This document shows positions 11,174 through 38,057 of a stretch of DNA of 38,057 bases, piece by piece; the stretch's first letter is position 1; every line of letters starts with the position of its first letter. Location: positions 1 through 38,057 of IMG/VR virus record IMGVR_UViG_3300050821_003114; one strand, 5' to 3'. Source of the stretch: a virus. Below the pieces are notes generated by a model, which did not search any database, was not told the DNA's origin, and saw only the letters and a list, made by a program, of their open reading frames with translations. The translations under genes were made by a program, and so were the position numbers.

Positions 11174-11627
11174 AGGAGATCTATTTACAACCAAGGCAAC
11201 AGTAATTGCACACGGGGTTAATTGTCGTGGAGCATTTGGTTCCGGGGTAGCCGGGCAAATTGCAAAACGCTGGCCTAAAGTACAAGAGTCATACTTAGAA
11301 AGATATCGTCTAAAAGGGTGGAAGCTTGGAGATGTAGAGTTAGTCTATTCTAGAAGTCCCCTAAAACACCCCATTATTGCCAATATGGCTACGCAAGATA
11401 AATTTGGTTATGATGGAAAACTGTATGCTGATTATAATGCTATAGATATTTGTTTAGATCAAGTGTTGTATTTTGCCGATTATTGTGGTTATTCCGTAGC
11501 CATGCCCAAGGTTGGATGTGGTCTGGCCGGAGCGGACTGGAATATAGTCTATGGAATACTACAAGATCTTTCCTGTAAATACGATCGCGTAGCGATCGAG
11601 GTATATGAATTGAATAATAGAGAATGA
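11157..11627 (+). CDS. macrodomain protein (ADP-ribose binding or hydrolase)
   Basis: A single 156-residue macrodomain. GDLF at 7-10, VIAHGVNCRGAFGSGVAGQI at 16-35 and VAMPKVGCGLAGADW at 114-128 are the ADP-ribose-binding loops, most like the Poa1/TARG1/DarG branch. Such proteins hydrolyse ADP-ribose-1''-phosphate or remove ADP-ribose from modified residues. With a PARP-like gene at 165 it is a candidate eraser for the phage's own mark, or a counter to host ADP-ribosylation. The catalytic residue cannot be fixed by eye: TARG1's Asp after CGL is Ala here, as in many phage members. It overlaps both neighbours. Confidence 0.88.
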   Translation: MIHLIKGDLFTTKATVIAHGVNCRGAFGSGVAGQIAKRWPKVQESYLERYRLKGWKLGDVELVYSRSPLKHPIIANMATQDKFGYDGKLYADYNAIDICLDQVLYFADYCGYSVAMPKVGCGLAGADWNIVYGILQDLSCKYDRVAIEVYELNNRE

Positions 11628-11638
11628 TGGAGCTGATT

Positions 11639-14600
11639 ATGTTGTTGACGAACGATTTTTCAAAAGAGATTTGGTTTAATACTTATAAATATGAAGAGGA
11701 GAAAGACCTATCAGGTACATTTCTACGTAACGCGGTATCGATTGCCTCAGTGGAGAAGACAGAAGAATTGAGAGAGTACTGGACTCAACAGTTTAATGAT
11801 GTGTTGCAAAAAATGCAACTTTGTCCGGCCGGAAGAATACTTGCTAACGCCGGAACACATTATAAAGGAACTACATTATTTAATTGTTACGTTGGTTCTA
11901 GACCTTCTTATGATTTGGATTCTCTTGATGGTATTCTTGAGACGTTGCGTATCCAGGCACAAACGCTGAAAAGCGAAGGTGGTTGGGGAATGAATTTCTC
12001 TTTCATACGCCCTAGGGGTTCTACAATATATGGAATTGGGGTAGAGACTCCTGGATCTATTAAGTATATGGAACTGTTTAATCGGTCGTCAGACATAATC
12101 ACAGCAGGATCAGGCAGGGAAGCCGGCAAGGTCGGGTTGAAGAAAAAGATACGTAAAGGCGCACAAATGGGGATGTTATCAGTCTGGCATCCCGATATAT
12201 TAGAATTCATCACAGCAAAGAGAGTAGCTAATCGACTGGATAAATTCAACGTCTCCGTAGTAGCTGATAAGAAGTTTATGGAGAAAGTACTTCTCTATGA
12301 AGAATCTGGACAGGATTCCGAATGGGACTTTATTTTTCCGGAAACAACTCATCCGAACTACAAATCTGAATGGGATGGTAATATATATAGATGGGTCGAT
12401 AAAGGATATCCGGTACGCAAATACGGCAGTATCCTGGTAAGCAAACTCTGGGATTTGATCATGCGATCTACCTTTGATTACAATGATCCCGGCATCTTTT
12501 TTGAAGATCGTGCTAATGCTACACATCTATTTAGTTATGATCTGGATAAGTATATATTGTGTACAAACCCTTGTCAACCAGCATGGGCTACTGTTTTAAC
12601 TCCTAATGGTATTTCTACACTCAAAGATATTAACATTGGTGATTTGATTTGGTCTGAAAAAGGATGGACTAAAGTAGTTAATAAAGTGTGTACAGGAAAT
12701 AAAGATGTATATGCTTACAAAACCACTTTTGGGACATTTTATGGAACCGAAAACCATAAAGTGTTAGAAAATGGAGAAAAGATAGAAGCGAAAAGTGCTG
12801 AAGGTATAGATATTTTAAGAGGCGGATATAATGCTGCTTCATATATTTGTAACCCAAAAATAATAATGGATGGTTTAGTCTTTGGTGATGGTTCTGTTCA
12901 CAAAGCATCAAATAATCTAGTACATTTAAATATAGGAAAAGATGATCAAGATTATTTTGATAGTTCTATTAGTAATTACATTGGACAGCATAGACCGGGT
13001 TTACATGAGTATTCGTATGAGATAAAAACAGATATACTACCCGAAGAATTGCCGCACACTTACGCTAGAAAAATTCCTGACAGGTATTTCTATGGTGATA
13101 AATTAACAGTAAGATCGTTTCTCAAAGGATTATATTCTGCAAATGGTAGTGTAACAGGGGGTAGAGTAACTCTCAAAGCAAGTTCCTATACAGTGATTTC
13201 ACAAGTTCAAATCATGTTATCTTCTTTAGGAATTGCATCTTATTATACTGTTAATAAGCCAAATAAGATTAAATTTTCTAATGGAGAATATGAGTGTAAA
13301 AAGAGTTATGATCTTAATATTACTAGAGATAAACACAAATTTTGGGCTATCATTGGATTTCTTCAAAAATATAAACAGGACAAATTATACCTATTAATTA
13401 AAAATAAATGTGATAAACCAGAAGTAATCACAAAAGATATTCATACTATAGAATTTGTTGGTAATGAAGATGTTTATGATATAACAGTAGATAATGTGAC
13501 ACATACTTATTGGACTGGTGGATTAAACGTATCAAACTGCGGCGAACAGAGCATGCCATATGGATCTGTATGTGATCTAGCATCTATTCCATTACCATCC
13601 TTCTATAAGAACGGTATATTTGACTACGTTGAATTTGAAAGGGCGGTTAGAGTAGCAGTTCGTTTACTTGATAATGTTAATGACTATAGTTCTACCCCGC
13701 ATGAAAGTTATACTAAGTCTGCCAGAGAGAACCGGCGAATTGGTCTAGGGTTAATGGGTTGGGCTAGCTTACTCTATCTGATGAAAGTCCGGTTTGGCAG
13801 CGATGAAGCGGAAGCTATTAAACACAAGTTGATGAAAACCTTTACTTCTGCCGCCGTTCAGGCTTCGATAGACCTCGCCATTGAGAAAGGCCCGTTCACG
13901 GGCTGTGATAAGGAAAAGTTAGCAGATCATCCGTTTTGGGACCAAATAGAATTAGACGCAGGATATAGGGAAGCTATACGTAAACATGGACTTCGCAATT
14001 CTGCCCTATTTAGCATCCAGCCGAATGGAAATACCGGAGTTCTTATGAATTTAATGAGCGGTGGCGCGGCCGAACCCATTTTTATGCATGAATATATTCG
14101 TACCGTAATCGTACAACCGGCTCCGGAACATATCAAAGACCGTTGTCCTAAATATGAACAGGGAGAATTCCATGAGACTGATCTTTTCAAATTTACAAAG
14201 GAAGGCTCGGAGACGATTCTAAAAGGCACGGATGAAACCGGAGTAACCTATAAGATAGATAAGAACAGAGGGTTGACCAAAGAGGTACTCTGCGAAGATT
14301 ATGCTGTCAAGAAATTGAAAGAAATCGGAGAATGGGACTCGGAAGCGCCTTGGGCGGTTACAACCACTAATTTATCTGTAGAAGATCATATAAAGGATCT
14401 TAAAGGTTGGGCTAAATGGATTGATTCCGCAATCAGCAAGACAGTTAATATTCCAAATGACTATTCATATGAAGACTTTAAGAAAATCTATTTGGAAGCT
14501 TACAAGACCGGAGTTATCAAAGGTATAACTACATACCGGGCCGGCACTATGACCAGCGTATTATCTGCCAAAATGAAGGATAAGATTTATAAGACCAACG

Positions 14601-15103
14601 CCCCAAAAAGACCTAGATCTCTTCCCTGTAAAGTATTTTATCCAATGCTTCGTGGGCAACGTTATTATGTGGTATGTGGTTTATATGAGGATGATTTATA
14701 CGAAGTTTTTGCCGGAAAATTAACCGAATGCATTCCTCACAGTATTACAGAGGGTGAAATAGTAAAAGTTAAAAAAGGTCATTATAGGTTAATTAATAAT
14801 GATGATGTAATCATTGACAATCTCATAGAACATTGTGATCATTCGGAAGAGGCTATTTGTCGTTTGATGAGTGCCGGACTTCGACATGGAACGGACGTGA
14901 AATTTCTTAAAGAACAACTATCTAATTGTAAAGGAGAACTATATTCTTTTGGAAAAGTTCTTGGAAGAATTTTAGGTAAGTTTATTCCGGATAATACTTT
15001 ATCGAACGAGTTATGTCCGGATTGTGGAAAGAATTTAGTTTTTACTGAGGGTTGTAAGGGTTGCACCGGAGACGGTGGTTGTGGATGGAGTAAATGCTCA
15101 TGA
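11639..15103 (+). CDS. nrdJ: adenosylcobalamin-dependent (class II) ribonucleoside-diphosphate reductase with intein
   Basis: It reduces ribonucleotides to deoxyribonucleotides using a B12-derived radical, without needing oxygen or a second subunit. ATG 11639 has GGAG six nucleotides upstream; ATGs at 11624 and 11627 are alternatives. The translation is 1154 residues, or 832 after removal of the 322-residue intein (residues 312-633). Features include TLFNCYV (first redox Cys), NP|CGEQ interrupted by the intein (radical Cys and Glu), GSVCDLASIPL (second redox Cys), RRIGLGLMGWA and a Cys-rich tail (LCPDCGK, CGWSKC) typical of NrdJ. Directly downstream are two exported enzymes, then thyA and DHFR. 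The class II call rests on the tail and the absence of a small subunit gene here. Confidence 0.93.
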   Translation: MLLTNDFSKEIWFNTYKYEEEKDLSGTFLRNAVSIASVEKTEELREYWTQQFNDVLQKMQLCPAGRILANAGTHYKGTTLFNCYVGSRPSYDLDSLDGILETLRIQAQTLKSEGGWGMNFSFIRPRGSTIYGIGVETPGSIKYMELFNRSSDIITAGSGREAGKVGLKKKIRKGAQMGMLSVWHPDILEFITAKRVANRLDKFNVSVVADKKFMEKVLLYEESGQDSEWDFIFPETTHPNYKSEWDGNIYRWVDKGYPVRKYGSILVSKLWDLIMRSTFDYNDPGIFFEDRANATHLFSYDLDKYILCTNPCQPAWATVLTPNGISTLKDINIGDLIWSEKGWTKVVNKVCTGNKDVYAYKTTFGTFYGTENHKVLENGEKIEAKSAEGIDILRGGYNAASYICNPKIIMDGLVFGDGSVHKASNNLVHLNIGKDDQDYFDSSISNYIGQHRPGLHEYSYEIKTDILPEELPHTYARKIPDRYFYGDKLTVRSFLKGLYSANGSVTGGRVTLKASSYTVISQVQIMLSSLGIASYYTVNKPNKIKFSNGEYECKKSYDLNITRDKHKFWAIIGFLQKYKQDKLYLLIKNKCDKPEVITKDIHTIEFVGNEDVYDITVDNVTHTYWTGGLNVSNCGEQSMPYGSVCDLASIPLPSFYKNGIFDYVEFERAVRVAVRLLDNVNDYSSTPHESYTKSARENRRIGLGLMGWASLLYLMKVRFGSDEAEAIKHKLMKTFTSAAVQASIDLAIEKGPFTGCDKEKLADHPFWDQIELDAGYREAIRKHGLRNSALFSIQPNGNTGVLMNLMSGGAAEPIFMHEYIRTVIVQPAPEHIKDRCPKYEQGEFHETDLFKFTKEGSETILKGTDETGVTYKIDKNRGLTKEVLCEDYAVKKLKEIGEWDSEAPWAVTTTNLSVEDHIKDLKGWAKWIDSAISKTVNIPNDYSYEDFKKIYLEAYKTGVIKGITTYRAGTMTSVLSAKMKDKIYKTNAPKRPRSLPCKVFYPMLRGQRYYVVCGLYEDDLYEVFAGKLTECIPHSITEGEIVKVKKGHYRLINNDDVIIDNLIEHCDHSEEAICRLMSAGLRHGTDVKFLKEQLSNCKGELYSFGKVLGRILGKFIPDNTLSNELCPDCGKNLVFTEGCKGCTGDGGCGWSKCS
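12572..13537 (+). other. intein with LAGLIDADG-type endonuclease in nrdJ
   Basis: A 322-residue in-frame insert. It begins with Cys (CQPAWATVLTPNGI, block A), has TENHKVL (block B TxxH), two endonuclease-like motifs (LVFGDGSVH and FLKGLYSANGSV, LAGLIDADG-like), and ends EDVYDITVDNVTHTYWTGG...NVSN before Cys+1. The penultimate residue is Ser rather than the usual His. The terminal Asn and the downstream Cys nucleophile are intact, so splicing is expected. Its codons are visibly more AT-rich than the flanking nrdJ sequence, consistent with separate acquisition. Confidence 0.93.
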
Positions 15104-33724: not shown

Positions 33725-34186
33725 ATGTTATGTCGAGAAGATTTTCGTTATCTTGAATCAAGATATGCTTTTGATTTACGTGAAGCGTTCCGAAAGAAGT
33801 TATTTGCTAATGAAATCACTTTTGAGGATTATAAAAATGAAATAGAAGATGTTCCTATCACATTTGACTCCTATCAGTGCGGCACGGCTTGGACAGCCTC
33901 TTATCCGCCTTCAATGCCGACGGATGTTTATCTAGCTATGGGTGTAGCCGGCGAAACTGGCGAATTGGTAGAAGTGGTTAAAAAGTTACACCGCAACAAT
34001 AATGGCGTAATTACAGATGAAATCCGGGATAAACTCGTTAAAGAAGCTGGAGATGTTCTATATTATCTTTCAGCTTTAATGTTAGCTCACGGAGTGAGCA
34101 TGGAAGATGTTGCCAAGACAAATCAGCTAAAACTAGTTGATCGTTGGAAGCGGAATGTGGTTTGTTCTGAAGGTGATAATAGGTGA
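33725..34186 (+). CDS. MazG-like nucleotide pyrophosphohydrolase
   Basis: All-alpha NTP pyrophosphohydrolase fold. GVAGETGELVEVVKK supplies Glu77 and Glu80, and KEAGDVLYYLSAL supplies Glu107 and Asp110, matching the E-x2-E ... E-x2-D metal site. The N-terminal 60 residues are an added helical segment. Phage MazG-like enzymes are proposed to hydrolyse dNTPs or alarmone-like nucleotides. It overlaps the DNA polymerase gene by 4 nt. Confidence 0.85.
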   Translation: MLCREDFRYLESRYAFDLREAFRKKLFANEITFEDYKNEIEDVPITFDSYQCGTAWTASYPPSMPTDVYLAMGVAGETGELVEVVKKLHRNNNGVITDEIRDKLVKEAGDVLYYLSALMLAHGVSMEDVAKTNQLKLVDRWKRNVVCSEGDNR

Positions 34187-36168
34187 ATAGAATGGCGGAA
34201 CGCATGCAATCAGAACTAAAGTGGGCAAGTTTGCACAATCATACAGCGTTGGGGAGTTTATTAGACGGACTATCTAAACCAGAAGATTTATTAGAAAGAT
34301 CTATTAAAAATAACATTCCAGCAATCGCAATTACAGATCACGGGACTATGAATTGTGTGATTAAAGCGGCAAAAGCCAAAAAGAAAGTCATTGACAAGTT
34401 GAAAGGAACAGAATTTGAGGAAGCTGCAAAAACAATTAAGTTGATCAATGGCTGTGAGATGTATATAAATAATGGCAATAAGAACACTCACTTAGTTGTA
34501 CTAGCAAAGAATGCGGCCGGCTATAAGACTTTGATTAAAATGGTAAGTGAGGCTACTCGAAGAGAGAACTTCTACCGGAAACCACGGTTAACCCTATCCC
34601 AGATAGGAGAGTTTAATACAGATAAGAACCTGATTAGTTTCTCCGGTCACTGTGGTTCGGATATGGCCGACATTATATTTACGGATTGTAAGGCTGCTTA
34701 CAGTGCAACCGAAGAACAGGAGGTACGCAAGTATATCAATCCTAAATGTAAAAGTTTATTATTGGAAAAAGCCAGTGAATATATTGATGTATTTGGTAAA
34801 GAGAATTTCTCCTTGGAATACCAGCGTTTTGATCAAGATCGCATGCCCGCACAACGAGTTATTGCATCCGCAATGGATTGGGTTGCTTCACAGCTAGGAT
34901 TGACAAAAGTTGCAACTGCCGATTCACATTATACTTATAAATATCAATCTGAAGATCAGAGAATCCTTCTGTGTAATGCGTTGAAAACGACTCTTCCTAG
35001 GGTTTATAAACAACTGGCCAGTGACGATGATGATGTAGCTCTTGGAGGCTTTTTCAAGTCCGATAAGTATTATTTACCAACGGCGGCTGAAATTGCAGAA
35101 ATCCATGGAGAGGAAGAAATTAAGCGTAGTCTGGAAATCGCGGATATGTGCGAGTCCTACGATCTTTCTAATCCGCCGGTAATTCCGGCTTTCGACTGCC
35201 CGAATGGACTATCAGCAGATGAGTATATGAAAGAACTTTGCCGGGCCGGCTGGAAAAACAAATTGAATTTCTCCTCTAAATCTGAACGCGAAGAGTATGC
35301 GAATCGCGTGAAGTATGAATTAGATGTTCTCCAAGGGGCGAAGCTATCTGATTATTTTCTGATTGTACAGGATTTACTTGCTTATATTAAGAGTAAAGGA
35401 TTCTTATGTGGTCCGGGAAGAGGAAGTGCGGCCGGATGTCTTAGTAGTTATTTGTTAGGTATTACTGCTGTAGATCCAATTCCTCCGGGTTTGATTTTCG
35501 AGCGTTTCTATAATGCCGGTCGTAACACGCCTGGGAAACCAGCTTCGCTACCGGATATTGATATGGATATCCAAGGTGCGGCTGCTGATGTTGCTGTCAA
35601 ATATTTAAAGGATAAATATGGTCATGCTAATGTTGGTCAAATCGCCAATTACGGTCGTTTGATGGGTCGGGCTTGCCTTAAGGATGTATTGCGAGCACAT
35701 GAAGCTTGTGATTTTCAGACAATGAATAAAATATGTTCATTCCTTGTTGATGAGTCTGCGATTGCAGACGAATTAAACGAAATGAAAGAAGAAGAAGGTG
35801 AATCCTCTATTATTAAATGGGCTTTGGAAAATAATGCGAAAGAGCTTTCTGAATGGGCGTGGCTGGATGAGAAAACCGGAGATATAAACGGGCCTTATGG
35901 TAAGTATTTCCAACAAGCAATCCGGCTAGAAGGGACTTACAGACAACGAGGTAAACATGCGGCCGGCTATGTAATCTATCCCGGTCCAGTCTCGGATATC
36001 TGTCCCGTCACCTATAATAAAGAGGGAGATTGCCAAATTGACTTTGATATGCACGACGTGGAATATACCGGTGGTGTAAAGATGGATATATTGAAGGTGT
36101 GGGCTCTAGATAAGGTCGCAGACTGTGCCGAGTCCATAAGACTTGAGTTTCTTTTAGAGGAAATATGA
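34183..36168 (+). CDS. dnaE: DNA polymerase III alpha, N-terminal part (PHP and catalytic palm)
   Basis: 661 residues covering PHP and most of the polymerase palm. GTG 34183 overlaps the MazG stop (GTGA); ATG 34192 is also possible. PHP metal-ligand positions look intact: His18, His20, ITDHG (Asp52, His53), Glu92, SGH and ADSH (Asp247, His249). Catalytic acids are Asp458 and Asp460 (LPDIDMDI) and Asp635 (VKMDILKVWALD). FLCGPGRGSAAGCL is the dNTP-binding signature. The reading frame ends 26 residues after Asp635; the rest of the polymerase continues in the gene at 37586. It is therefore a split subunit. Confidence 0.92.
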   Translation: MNRMAERMQSELKWASLHNHTALGSLLDGLSKPEDLLERSIKNNIPAIAITDHGTMNCVIKAAKAKKKVIDKLKGTEFEEAAKTIKLINGCEMYINNGNKNTHLVVLAKNAAGYKTLIKMVSEATRRENFYRKPRLTLSQIGEFNTDKNLISFSGHCGSDMADIIFTDCKAAYSATEEQEVRKYINPKCKSLLLEKASEYIDVFGKENFSLEYQRFDQDRMPAQRVIASAMDWVASQLGLTKVATADSHYTYKYQSEDQRILLCNALKTTLPRVYKQLASDDDDVALGGFFKSDKYYLPTAAEIAEIHGEEEIKRSLEIADMCESYDLSNPPVIPAFDCPNGLSADEYMKELCRAGWKNKLNFSSKSEREEYANRVKYELDVLQGAKLSDYFLIVQDLLAYIKSKGFLCGPGRGSAAGCLSSYLLGITAVDPIPPGLIFERFYNAGRNTPGKPASLPDIDMDIQGAAADVAVKYLKDKYGHANVGQIANYGRLMGRACLKDVLRAHEACDFQTMNKICSFLVDESAIADELNEMKEEEGESSIIKWALENNAKELSEWAWLDEKTGDINGPYGKYFQQAIRLEGTYRQRGKHAAGYVIYPGPVSDICPVTYNKEGDCQIDFDMHDVEYTGGVKMDILKVWALDKVADCAESIRLEFLLEEI

Positions 36169-36773
36169 TAATCAATATTAAAACACACAAAATTTGTAAC
36201 CAAGAAAAACCGCTGCGTGGAGATATCGTTGTACATAGGGTAATTAATTTCGATGCAAATACAGGTAAAGAAATGTTGGAGTCTTTTAATAAAGCATTAG
36301 CTATTGGACAACCGATTTTTCCGGTTGTAATTGATAGCTATGGCGGCCAAGTATACAGTTTACAAGGATGTATAGATATTTTTGAATCTTCTCCAATTCC
36401 CGTTGCAACGATTGTCCAGGGCAAAGCCATGTCCTGTGGATCATTTTTAGCTGCATTCGGGACCAAGGGATATAGGTATATTGGTAAAAATTCTCATATA
36501 CTTATTCATCATTTAAATAATACTATTCATGGAATAACTCCTCAAATAAAAGAATGTGCAAAACATACTGAAGTAGTAGATAAGGAATTATTTGAAAAAT
36601 TATCTGTATATTGTGGTCATCAGACTAATTATTTTCAATCAAAACTCCAACAATTTGAGGGAGCAGACTGGTACGTTTCTCCGGAGGAAGCGATAGCTAT
36701 GAATTTAGTTGACCGTATTGGTATTCCAACACTTAACATAAACCTCAAATTAGAATATGGATTACAAATATGA
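36165..36773 (+). CDS. ClpP-like serine protease
   Basis: 202-residue ClpP/crotonase-fold peptidase. The catalytic Ser90 is in GKAMSCGSFLAA, His115 is in ILIHHL and Asp183 in YVSPEEAIAMNLVDRIG, a complete triad in family order. VVIDSYGGQVYS gives the ClpP Gly-Gly oxyanion loop. Phage ClpP-like enzymes often act in head maturation, but this one sits between the two halves of the DNA polymerase and overlaps the N-terminal half by 4 nt. No ClpX-type partner is seen nearby. Confidence 0.87.
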   Translation: MIINIKTHKICNQEKPLRGDIVVHRVINFDANTGKEMLESFNKALAIGQPIFPVVIDSYGGQVYSLQGCIDIFESSPIPVATIVQGKAMSCGSFLAAFGTKGYRYIGKNSHILIHHLNNTIHGITPQIKECAKHTEVVDKELFEKLSVYCGHQTNYFQSKLQQFEGADWYVSPEEAIAMNLVDRIGIPTLNINLKLEYGLQI

Positions 36774-37486
36774 AAAAAAAGTTTCTTAGTACGAAGTTAA
36801 ATAACAACATCATCGTATATGACTATGAGACTGGAAGTCGGGATGAGTTCACGACAGAACCGTTGGAAATTTCGGCTGTATGTGCGGATATAAACACACT
36901 TGAGTTAAAGACAGACAGCGAAGGCAAGGTATTAGTGTTTTCAACATTAGTCCGCCCTACGGATTGGAGTATAGTTGAAGACGGAGCTTTAAAAAAGAAT
37001 AACATTACCAGAGAGATGCTCGAAGAGAAGGATGAATCAGGTAACTATAAAGTTCCGGATCAAGAATTTGCATTCCGACAATTCGCGGGATTTTGTAGGA
37101 GTTTCGCCAGAAACGATCGCAAATGGGAACAACCTTATGCGGCCGGCTTCAACATACAAAAATTCGACAATGTAATTAGCAAAAGACTTTGTACAAAATA
37201 TAGCCATGTTGATAAGGATGGAGACAATCTATTATTTCACCCCTTTCATAGTTTTGATTTGATGGATATATTGCGAGTATTCTTCGCGTGGAGTGACGAA
37301 CTTCCGGCTTACAATCTTGATGCAGTCCGAGACTATTTTGGTATTGACAAAACTGGATCGCATAGGGCTGAAAAAGACGTGCTAGATACCTGGATGATCA
37401 TGAAGAGATTCATTACTTACTTTAAGCAAAGCTCACATAAGATGTTGCCAAAATTCAAAGGTGCGTTCAACTCCGAAGGAGTTTAA
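36770..37486 (+). CDS. DEDDh 3'-5' exonuclease (proofreading type)
   Basis: DnaQ/ExoI-like fold of 238 residues. ExoI is VYDYETGS with Asp18 and Glu20, ExoII is AAGFNIQKFDN with Asp133, and ExoIII is SHRAEKDVLDT with His198 and Asp203, giving the DEDDh set. Lying directly between the two polymerase parts, it is the natural proofreading partner. It overlaps clpP-like by 4 nt; one nucleotide separates it from the 33-residue gene that follows. Confidence 0.88.
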   Translation: MKKKFLSTKLNNNIIVYDYETGSRDEFTTEPLEISAVCADINTLELKTDSEGKVLVFSTLVRPTDWSIVEDGALKKNNITREMLEEKDESGNYKVPDQEFAFRQFAGFCRSFARNDRKWEQPYAAGFNIQKFDNVISKRLCTKYSHVDKDGDNLLFHPFHSFDLMDILRVFFAWSDELPAYNLDAVRDYFGIDKTGSHRAEKDVLDTWMIMKRFITYFKQSSHKMLPKFKGAFNSEGV

Positions 37487-37487
37487 C

Positions 37488-37589
37488 ATGGAAGATTATT
37501 ATGACATAGTTGGTATCCACTGGAATAGATTATTTTTGATTCTCATAGTGTCAATTATTGGCCTAGTTTTTATTAAGTATTTTCAATGA
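37488..37589 (+). CDS. 33-residue single-pass membrane peptide
   Basis: ATG 37488 to TGA 37589, with GAAGGAG just upstream, overlapping the next ATG by 4 nt. Residues 14-30 are a clean hydrophobic helix (RLFLILIVSIIGLVFIKY) after an acidic head (MEDYYDIVG). It lies directly before the C-terminal polymerase part. Could tether to the membrane; function unknown. Confidence 0.6.
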   Translation: MEDYYDIVGIHWNRLFLILIVSIIGLVFIKYFQ

Positions 37590-38057
37590 ACAATTATAAA
37601 ATAACGGATGATGAAGTCATCTTTGATTGTGGGTGCTCCTTCCGTCGCACGGGGAAAACCGTGGTTTTTGAACCGGATCTACATAACCCACGCCATACAA
37701 TTGACTTTGAATGTTCGGCTACGTATGAATTATTACAATTAGGTTTAACTGAAGGGGTTTTCCAATTAGGTTCCCCTGATGGCAAGACTCAGTGTAAAAA
37801 GTTGGTTCCTACGGAAATGGAACATATCAGTGCTCTTGGAGCAATTGTCAGACCCGGATGTAAAGAATCCAAGGATAAAGACGGACTAAATATTACGACT
37901 CGTTATCAGCGTAAGAAAAACTGTAAAATGGAAATGACACCTTTTCATCCTGTAGTAGATGCTATCTTAGCTCCTACATATGGTGAAAATATCTATCAGG
38001 AGACTTCATTAGAGCTTGCTAAGCAGTGTGCGGGATTTTCCCTGAGTGAAGCTGATA
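37586..38057 (+). CDS. dnaE: DNA polymerase III alpha, C-terminal part (runs off window)
   Basis: 157 residues are visible, open to the end of the window. About 45 N-terminal residues (FDCGCSFRRTGKTVVFEPDL) have no evident match in bacterial DnaE; two cysteines could bind metal. From residue 46 the DnaE sequence resumes: SATYELLQLGLTEGVFQLG, KKLVPTEMEHISALGAIVRP and GENIYQESLLELAKQCAGFS-like segments (here ETSLELAKQCAGFSLSEAD) are the finger-domain motifs that in DnaE follow the third catalytic Asp region. This gene thus completes the polymerase begun at 34183. Confidence 0.88.
   Translation, partial: MNNYKITDDEVIFDCGCSFRRTGKTVVFEPDLHNPRHTIDFECSATYELLQLGLTEGVFQLGSPDGKTQCKKLVPTEMEHISALGAIVRPGCKESKDKDGLNITTRYQRKKNCKMEMTPFHPVVDAILAPTYGENIYQETSLELAKQCAGFSLSEAD

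Follow-up and report, generated by a model that had tools for sequence, protein, structure and literature searches.

Replicases of the C family are normally one long chain, in which each added nucleotide requires closure of the fingers onto the palm. What, then, becomes of such an enzyme when palm and fingers are encoded by separate genes? IMG/VR record IMGVR_UViG_3300050821_003114, a linear phage fragment of 38,057 bp taken in its entirety as the window, raises this question near its end. There, the DnaE-type alpha subunit of DNA polymerase III (Pol III) is divided between two genes, with an exonuclease gene among those that separate them. A reading made from the DNA letters alone (the sequence-only reading) had proposed a settled gene arrangement whose halves must assemble in trans. 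We found the same split, with an exonuclease between the halves, in about 100 distinct related loci, and we regard a fixed fission of a phage replicase with assembly of its halves in trans as very probable.

A replicase gene divided between palm and fingers

The first gene (34183..36168, plus strand, GTG start) encodes a 661-aa N-half with the Pfam domains PHP at residues 17-215 (2e-28) and DNA_pol3_alpha at residues 347-637 (3.5e-61), and the finger domain is absent from it. Compared with solved Pol III alpha chains, its best match has an E of 1.2e-58. The fingers appear in the second gene (37586..38056, plus strand, ATG start), whose product, the C-half, also matches Pol III alpha chains and contains DNA_pol3_finger (1.2e-22) from residue 37. 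Because the contig ends inside this gene, only the first 157 residues are visible. On the solved chain 5lew, the N-half covers residues 5-600 and the C-half residues 610-727. Since the alignments end at 600 and resume at 610, the break lies at the palm/fingers border. This comparison with a full-length enzyme had been proposed by the sequence-only reading, whose gene coordinates were correct and whose claim of a DnaE split in two genes agrees with the Pfam domains.

D460, D462 and D635 of the palm, which we take to be the catalytic aspartates of Pol III alpha, are invariant in 45 aligned N-halves, bearing out the earlier assignment of PHP and three palm aspartates to the N-terminal gene. These rows, like the 33 exonucleases aligned below, were picked for diversity out of about 100. 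The C-half can be viewed complete in relatives only. There, HHH_6 scores above the cut-off in L017, L040 and L053 and below it in L054, while the OB matches in L017, L040 and L054 are all under cut-off; together with the fingers, these matches suggest that the C-half retains the helix-hairpin-helix and OB fold. Modelled singly with AlphaFold2, the window's N-half reached a predicted local distance difference test score (pLDDT) of 92.6 and a predicted template modelling score of 0.88, and the complete C-half of L144 reached a pLDDT of 92.4. A Foldseek search with the L144 model led to Pol III alpha chains.

Between the N-half stop and the C-half start lie 1417 nt with three genes on the plus strand: a ClpP-like serine protease of 202 aa (36165..36773; Pfam CLP_protease, 8e-18), a DEDDh 3'-5' exonuclease of 238 aa resembling epsilon (36770..37486; PHROG 192, "DNA polymerase exonuclease subunit", 3.7e-18; Pfam RNase_T, 3.4e-8) and a 33-aa single-span membrane-like peptide (37488..37589; one hydrophobic 19-mer of mean hydropathy 2.35), the longest ORF reading of which starts at 37461. 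The exonuclease residues D18, E20, D133, H198 and D203 (Asp-Glu-Asp-His-Asp) are invariant in the 33 aligned sequences. Directly upstream of the N-half stands a MazG-like nucleotide pyrophosphohydrolase (33725..34186, plus strand; Pfam MazG, 1.9e-8; PHROG 229), mentioned for context only. Four of the five junctions overlap by 4 nt, as GTGA at MazG/N-half and as ATGA at N-half/ClpP, ClpP/exonuclease and peptide/C-half, so that both junctions of the polymerase halves are the neat overlaps first reported. The exonuclease/peptide junction is a 1-nt gap. A second stop codon directly follows the N-half stop, and the C-half frame is open from 37577 only; no simple frameshift could therefore unite the halves.

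Conservation and history of the split

Single-protein scans of viral contigs with the window's N-half or C-half found no close relative. Scanning with aligned N-regions gave a first set of 80 IMG/VR loci, which were sorted by open reading frame (ORF) calling and BLAST with near-duplicates kept. This set and those that follow hold the best-matching loci listed, so the size of the group is a lower bound. Separate N and C genes were present in 38 loci and a single ORF in 29, 27 of which lie outside the window's clade (described below); 13 were truncated or unassigned, among them L079, which is split at the palm/fingers border and has no C match. L075 and L085, long single ORFs with no C match, are probably unsplit. 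A DEDDh exonuclease lies between the halves in 37 of the 38 split loci, the exception being L094, outside the clade.

A second set comprised L098-L176, from a C-half scan that also hit one locus of the first set, and L177 and L178, from one scan of genome contigs; the contig of L177 is binned as a Flavobacteriales metagenome-assembled genome and that of L178 as a Lokiarchaeota one. Judged by best-scoring ORF, the order N-half, exonuclease, C-half (N-exo-C) occurs in 81/81, although eight have a shortened N ORF of 432-471 aa. The two sets share contigs (L098, for example, is the contig of L017). Merged, with rows of identical N and C starts dropped and near-duplicates retained, they give at least 102 distinct loci out of 119 split ones, the window and L094 included. 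Scans from two unsplit relatives returned 81 loci, 64 of them distinct, which partly overlap the earlier sets and are not counted in the 102: 49 are N-exo-C, 5 are unsplit and have the exonuclease gene upstream (three of them, L296, L297 and L299, being almost the same), 1 is otherwise split (L301) and 9 are truncated. The idea of a settled arrangement was upheld by the recurrence of this split and gene order in some 100 distinct related loci.

Several individual loci deserve mention. L094 (7004-12427) has an independent split at the palm/fingers border; by eye, dUTPase-like and thymidine-kinase-like ORFs lie between its halves, and no exonuclease was found there. In L120 (6329-6998) the exonuclease between the halves is in two short ORFs, possibly through a frameshift or a sequencing error. 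The window's exonuclease alone had no match among phage records at E 0.01. Human faecal records named "Bacteriophage sp." topped our tblastn lists; in three that we inspected, dnaE stands among seemingly cellular genes, and they look like bacterial fragments. In one such record, L002, dnaE occupies two overlapping ORFs in a frameshift-like manner. These faecal records were used in alignments and as outgroups only.

The N-to-C gap has a median of 903 nt across 95 loci, a count that excludes the window and six multi-piece loci. In 81 of 94 relatives the exonuclease stop is at most 30 nt from the C-half start, which therefore leaves little space for a peptide gene, and in 72 of 95 loci the N-to-exonuclease gap holds one of three small-ORF BLAST clusters (44, 15 and 13 loci). 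The conserved order is N-half, usually a small ORF, exonuclease, C-half. BLAST with the window's ClpP showed that no other searched locus has ClpP between N and C; in the nearest relative, L017, a ClpP homologue lies ~6 kb upstream of the N-half. No counterpart of the 33-aa peptide was recognized in relatives, though a 39-aa hydrophobic ORF directly ahead of the L039 C-half may be related to it. ClpP and the membrane peptide thus appear to be passengers in the window's lineage, outside the conserved unit. The five-gene order that the sequence-only reading had suggested seeking in other phage genomes was not found in those searched: it is the window's own, because ClpP is not found between halves elsewhere and the exonuclease adjoins the C-half in most loci. 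The same reading had put forward all three intervening genes as possible partners of the polymerase. For the exonuclease this agrees with its association with the split (37/38 and 81/81), whereas no counterparts of ClpP or the peptide were recognized between the halves of the relatives searched.

Purifying selection acts on both halves and on the exonuclease. Across 22 pairs of related loci, the ratio of nonsynonymous to synonymous substitution rates (dN/dS) was 0.00-0.14 for all three genes where computable; six exonuclease and two C-half comparisons were saturated, and many dS values exceeded 1. One outlier, at 0.28, is the C-half of the pair L035-L101, that of L035 being 315 aa long.

We also examined which polymerases accompany the split. 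Each of 23 long records from relatives (40-206 kb; 21 split, 2 unsplit; no record known to be complete) has one palm and one finger locus, save four: the palm is in two pieces in G007, G011 and G019, and the 206-kb G001 has two split sets. None of the 23 has an unsplit DnaE beside a split one. Full-length dnaE is confined to the two unsplit relatives, and the refuting case that had been named at the outset, a full-length dnaE elsewhere in the genome, was not found in the 21 split relative records. Pfam DNA_pol_A and DNA_pol_B each matched 0/24 sequences (the 23 records and the window fragment), compared with 10/14 and 5/14 control genomes, respectively. The two sets of G001 (a 206,326-bp record; locus L102) lie about 146 kb apart, through either a real duplication or a joined assembly; one of their C ORFs is only 315 aa long, as in L035 and L043.

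In a tree of 82 N-regions, the window pairs with L017 and its clade comprises 48 rows, each grouping with an SH-like approximate likelihood-ratio test (SH-aLRT) support of 100. Within the clade, 38 rows are split, 8 are unassigned and 2 (L032 and L062) are unsplit; since it contains unsplit members, the split is not obligatory. Corynebacterium phage P1201 and L094 are split at the same palm/fingers border on other branches, with a minimum of four changes over the tree, so the joint has been broken more than once. In a second tree, built on 46 rows of joined halves, the unsplit lineage falls within the split clade (SH-aLRT 98-99), a placement that would imply re-fusion of the halves. In the unsplit relatives L032, L062, L257 and L296-L299, the exonuclease lies directly upstream of dnaE.

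Some members are fragmented further. In L109 (3032-6108) and L130 (3053-6142) the N-half is in two genes: in the first, GPGRG is followed by what resembles the N-part of an intein, and the second opens with a C-part whose closing HN precedes SAAG. The first pieces score 2e-8 and 9e-8 with Pfam Intein_splicing, narrowly missing the curated cut-off, and the second pieces match that model only weakly; L301 (1436-5980), from the lineage with the exonuclease upstream, has the same pattern (1.7e-7, under cut-off). These matches make it likely that all three carry a split intein at the GPGRG/S motif in their DnaE, in which case alpha would come from three genes (N1, N2 and C) in L109 and L130. In L131 (3114-6107), the N-half is broken beside the catalytic PDID motif, a LAGLIDADG ORF (3e-8, above cut-off) lies between the pieces, and the second piece opens with about 90 residues unlike DnaE. 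L136, L138 and L141 share the N1 length of L131. Inteins above cut-off are also found in the C-halves of L040 (9757-12021), L053 (9114-11987) and L054 (10772-13213); by eye, that of L040 begins with the RPGC cysteine.

The cysteine-bearing tag and probable assembly in trans

The window's C-half opens with a stretch of about 40 residues not present in ordinary DnaE. This tag (37586..37714, plus strand) carries C15-G-C17 and C43 ahead of the first finger helix. The C-halves of relatives likewise start with C-G-C (C-L-C in L053) and a third Cys just ahead of that helix, whereas in the unsplit L032, L062 and L298 a short linker stands in place of the tag, with Asp at the third-Cys position. The initial description of a Cys-containing N-terminus missing from typical DnaE is thus matched by its conservation in relatives and its lack in the three unsplit ones examined. 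Among the 102 distinct C-halves, 78 have all three Cys, 4 have the third only, and 20 have none, Asp replacing it; column by column, the Cys are present in 78/78 tagged C-halves and in 0, 0 and 4 of the 24 untagged ones. The AlphaFold2 model of L144 has ordered strands round C8-C10 and a helix from residue 36, after C35, with pLDDT 85-94 over residues 1-40. It is a fair guess from these features that the tag is a small metal-binding knuckle at the joint.

No invariant fourth Cys or His ligand tracks the tag in these sequences. Partial candidates exist, such as H308 of the N-half (73/78 tagged, 4/24 untagged), which is not invariant and whose distribution is possibly phylogenetic. Only 3 to 5 independent changes underlie the coupling of tag and third Cys, too few for it to reach significance on the tree. 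Because 24 split C-halves do without it, split polymerases in general do not require the tag. Six PHP-domain histidines, presumably metal ligands, are kept in 68-76 of the 78 tagged members versus 9-12 of the 24 untagged. In one untagged subgroup (L045, L048-L051 and L055-L061), the N-halves are shortened to about 530-555 aa and the PHP region is degenerate, which suggests that the PHP site is dead there.

Assembly of the halves in trans is the likeliest reading of these results. The halves would be translated side by side from one operon and dock non-covalently at the palm/fingers border to make one active polymerase. The exonuclease would supply proofreading, as epsilon does, a role suggested by the adjacency of the genes. 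The C-G-C...C tag could fold into a small metal-binding knuckle, capping the new end and helping to keep the joint together. A more far-reaching version, which we put forward only tentatively and think will probably not hold in full, is an obligate replicase of alpha-N, epsilon-like exonuclease and alpha-C across an entire lineage of uncultured phages, with the knuckle as a joint clamp, an N-exo-C order that serves co-translational assembly, further splitting by intein in some members and, maybe, re-fusion in one branch.

Several observations weigh against a working split enzyme in the window or against a split maintained throughout the group. The window's C-half is cut short and atypical, with changes at several near-invariant finger residues (LES to LGS, for instance) and a long branch of 0.78. 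A few clade members (L032, L062 and near kin) are unsplit, and a topology that holds the split rows together, with a single origin of the split, is not rejected (approximately unbiased (AU) test, p 0.35). The DNA_pol_B_2 search was uninformative, as it matched no control. Finally, the window is a fragment, and another polymerase may lie in the rest of its genome; nor is any of the long relative records known to be complete.

Could the split instead be the scar of a mobile element? A homing endonuclease, intron or split intein might have broken the gene, leaving halves that are rejoined or tolerated. Endonuclease-like ORFs do occur in the N-exo or exo-C gaps of some relatives (PHROG HNH endonuclease or endonuclease matches in L017, L049 and L176, a PHROG endonuclease VII match in L051 and Pfam HNH_3 in L045), a LAGLIDADG ORF separates the two further pieces of L131, and the split-intein-like halves of L109, L130 and L301 fit the same idea, though at GPGRG/S, another site. 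At the palm/fingers joint itself, however, Pfam found no intein domain in either half of the window, Rfam found no intron at its gathering threshold in six loci (the window, L017, L022, L144, L049 and L122), and the window's N-to-C gap, which contains ClpP, exonuclease and peptide, has no homing endonuclease. Moreover, the constant element is the exonuclease rather than a homing enzyme, abutting the C-half in 81/94 loci, and most N-exo gaps (72/95) hold a member of the small-ORF clusters. We therefore consider a scar unlikely as the explanation, while an endonuclease that acted at the origin and was since lost may be compatible with all these points. A different origin, in which exo-dnaE was duplicated in tandem and the C part of copy 1 and the N part of copy 2 were lost to give N-exo-C, concerns how the split arose and is compatible with assembly in trans. 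In both layouts the exonuclease stands immediately ahead of either the C-terminal coding part or the entire dnaE, as such a duplication would leave it, but no intermediate was found, and the joined-halves tree places the unsplit lineage inside the split clade, which would instead mean re-fusion, although the alternative topology is not rejected (AU p 0.35). This origin strikes us as somewhat less doubtful than a scar, yet still short of an even chance.

The genes could also be decaying leftovers in a phage replicated by another polymerase, such as that of its host. The deviations of the window's C-half at near-invariant positions, and a contig end that falls inside it, leave some room for this view. 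Set against it, the N-half keeps its palm aspartates, the frames are intact with overlapping starts, and relatives show strong purifying selection, so that decay seems very improbable. The window is a single record of a metagenomic contig, as would suit an assembly artefact, but about 100 distinct loci, all from other contigs, share the split and the gene order, which excludes this for the arrangement. As an overall explanation an artefact has next to no likelihood; it could at most concern the window's private details, ClpP and the peptide. Assembly in trans of the products of a fixed fission thus stays the preferred explanation.

Among the other window genes tested, those with a match belong mostly to replication and nucleotide metabolism: a DnaB-like helicase, a primase, a deoxynucleotide kinase, a PD-(D/E)XK nuclease, ribonucleotide reductase, thymidylate synthase, a UvsX-like recombinase, a deaminase, PhoH and an ATPase with weak clamp-loader matches. 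A gene at 165-1394 carries the PHROG label "polymerase" and is not a second replicase; it has a WGR domain (8e-16) and a PARP catalytic domain (Pfam PARP, 2.2e-18), that is, a poly(ADP-ribose) polymerase domain in a phage gene. The ribonucleotide reductase large subunit (11624-15103, 1159 aa) has a LAGLIDADG/homing-endonuclease match at residues 488-568, within its barrel domain, where the insert is probably an intein or similar.

Known split polymerases and the meaning of the locus

Split polymerases are familiar from other phages. In Corynebacterium phage P1201 (NC_009816), DnaE is in two genes, gp59 and gp58, the first of which ends at the same palm/fingers border; they differ from the window's in overlapping directly, with no gene between, and in belonging to a separate tree branch. 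DnaE is annotated in more than one gene in Satyr, Jayan, Crestdrop, S-CoN_Ph8, phage G, AM11 and Cellulophaga phiST, but those seven records have no exonuclease annotated between the pieces, and cut sites are mapped for some of them only. In cyanobacteria, dnaE is likewise in two genes, but the halves are rejoined by protein trans-splicing. This split-intein DnaE, which PMC3919608 mentions, differs from the window, in whose halves no intein domain is found at the joint.

For group 2.2 jumbo phages, passages of PMC7824862 describe a Pol III alpha that is split into two stand-alone proteins, thought to reconstitute the enzyme. The likeness is a phage C-family polymerase made as two proteins. As described there, however, the jumbo-phage alpha is minimal, without other Pol III domains, and its genes are distant from one another and accompany a family B polymerase. 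The window's DnaE, by contrast, bears PHP and is cut at palm/fingers, its halves lie close around an exonuclease, and neither the window fragment nor the 23 long relative records match DNA_pol_B. The closest tested precedents for a working split enzyme that the consulted parts of PMC2988022 offer are gp43 of Aeromonas phage 25, whose family B halves gp43A/43B co-purify and polymerize, and the NrdA of Aeh1, which is split and fully functional. In phages 25 and 44RR, as here, a replicative polymerase is encoded by two separate genes. According to the same passages, gp43 belongs to another polymerase family and is split with a seg-type endonuclease in phage 25 and with an untranslated spacer in 44RR. 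Phage MIJ3 has a split family B polymerase that is rejoined through a split intein, with an HNH ORF between its parts (PMC6892783), and OM43 phages have split polymerases with a small ORF between (PMC10580990); the relevant passages of these two papers describe no DnaE with an exonuclease between its halves.

Searched against 50,697 phage records, the clade's proteins had no match above about 35% identity among the matches listed, and because identities are this low, no named member of the clade was recognized. The N-exo-C arrangement is not named in the titles and abstracts of the literature searched, a scope that did not extend to the likeliest source, the 2011 viral-replicase survey of Kazlauskas and Venclovas. 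Phage split polymerases, including another split Pol III alpha, are already published; the N-exo-C split replicase is a new, widespread form.

Gene finders may overlook or misname such replicases in environmental phages. For biochemistry and for split-enzyme tools, the group offers natural two-part polymerases, and it records the fission, intein fragmentation and possibly re-fusion of an essential gene. The natural separation of palm and fingers provides a test of whether a covalent link is needed for finger closure. If the halves do assemble in trans, these phages probably copy their DNA with a machine built from at least three pieces.

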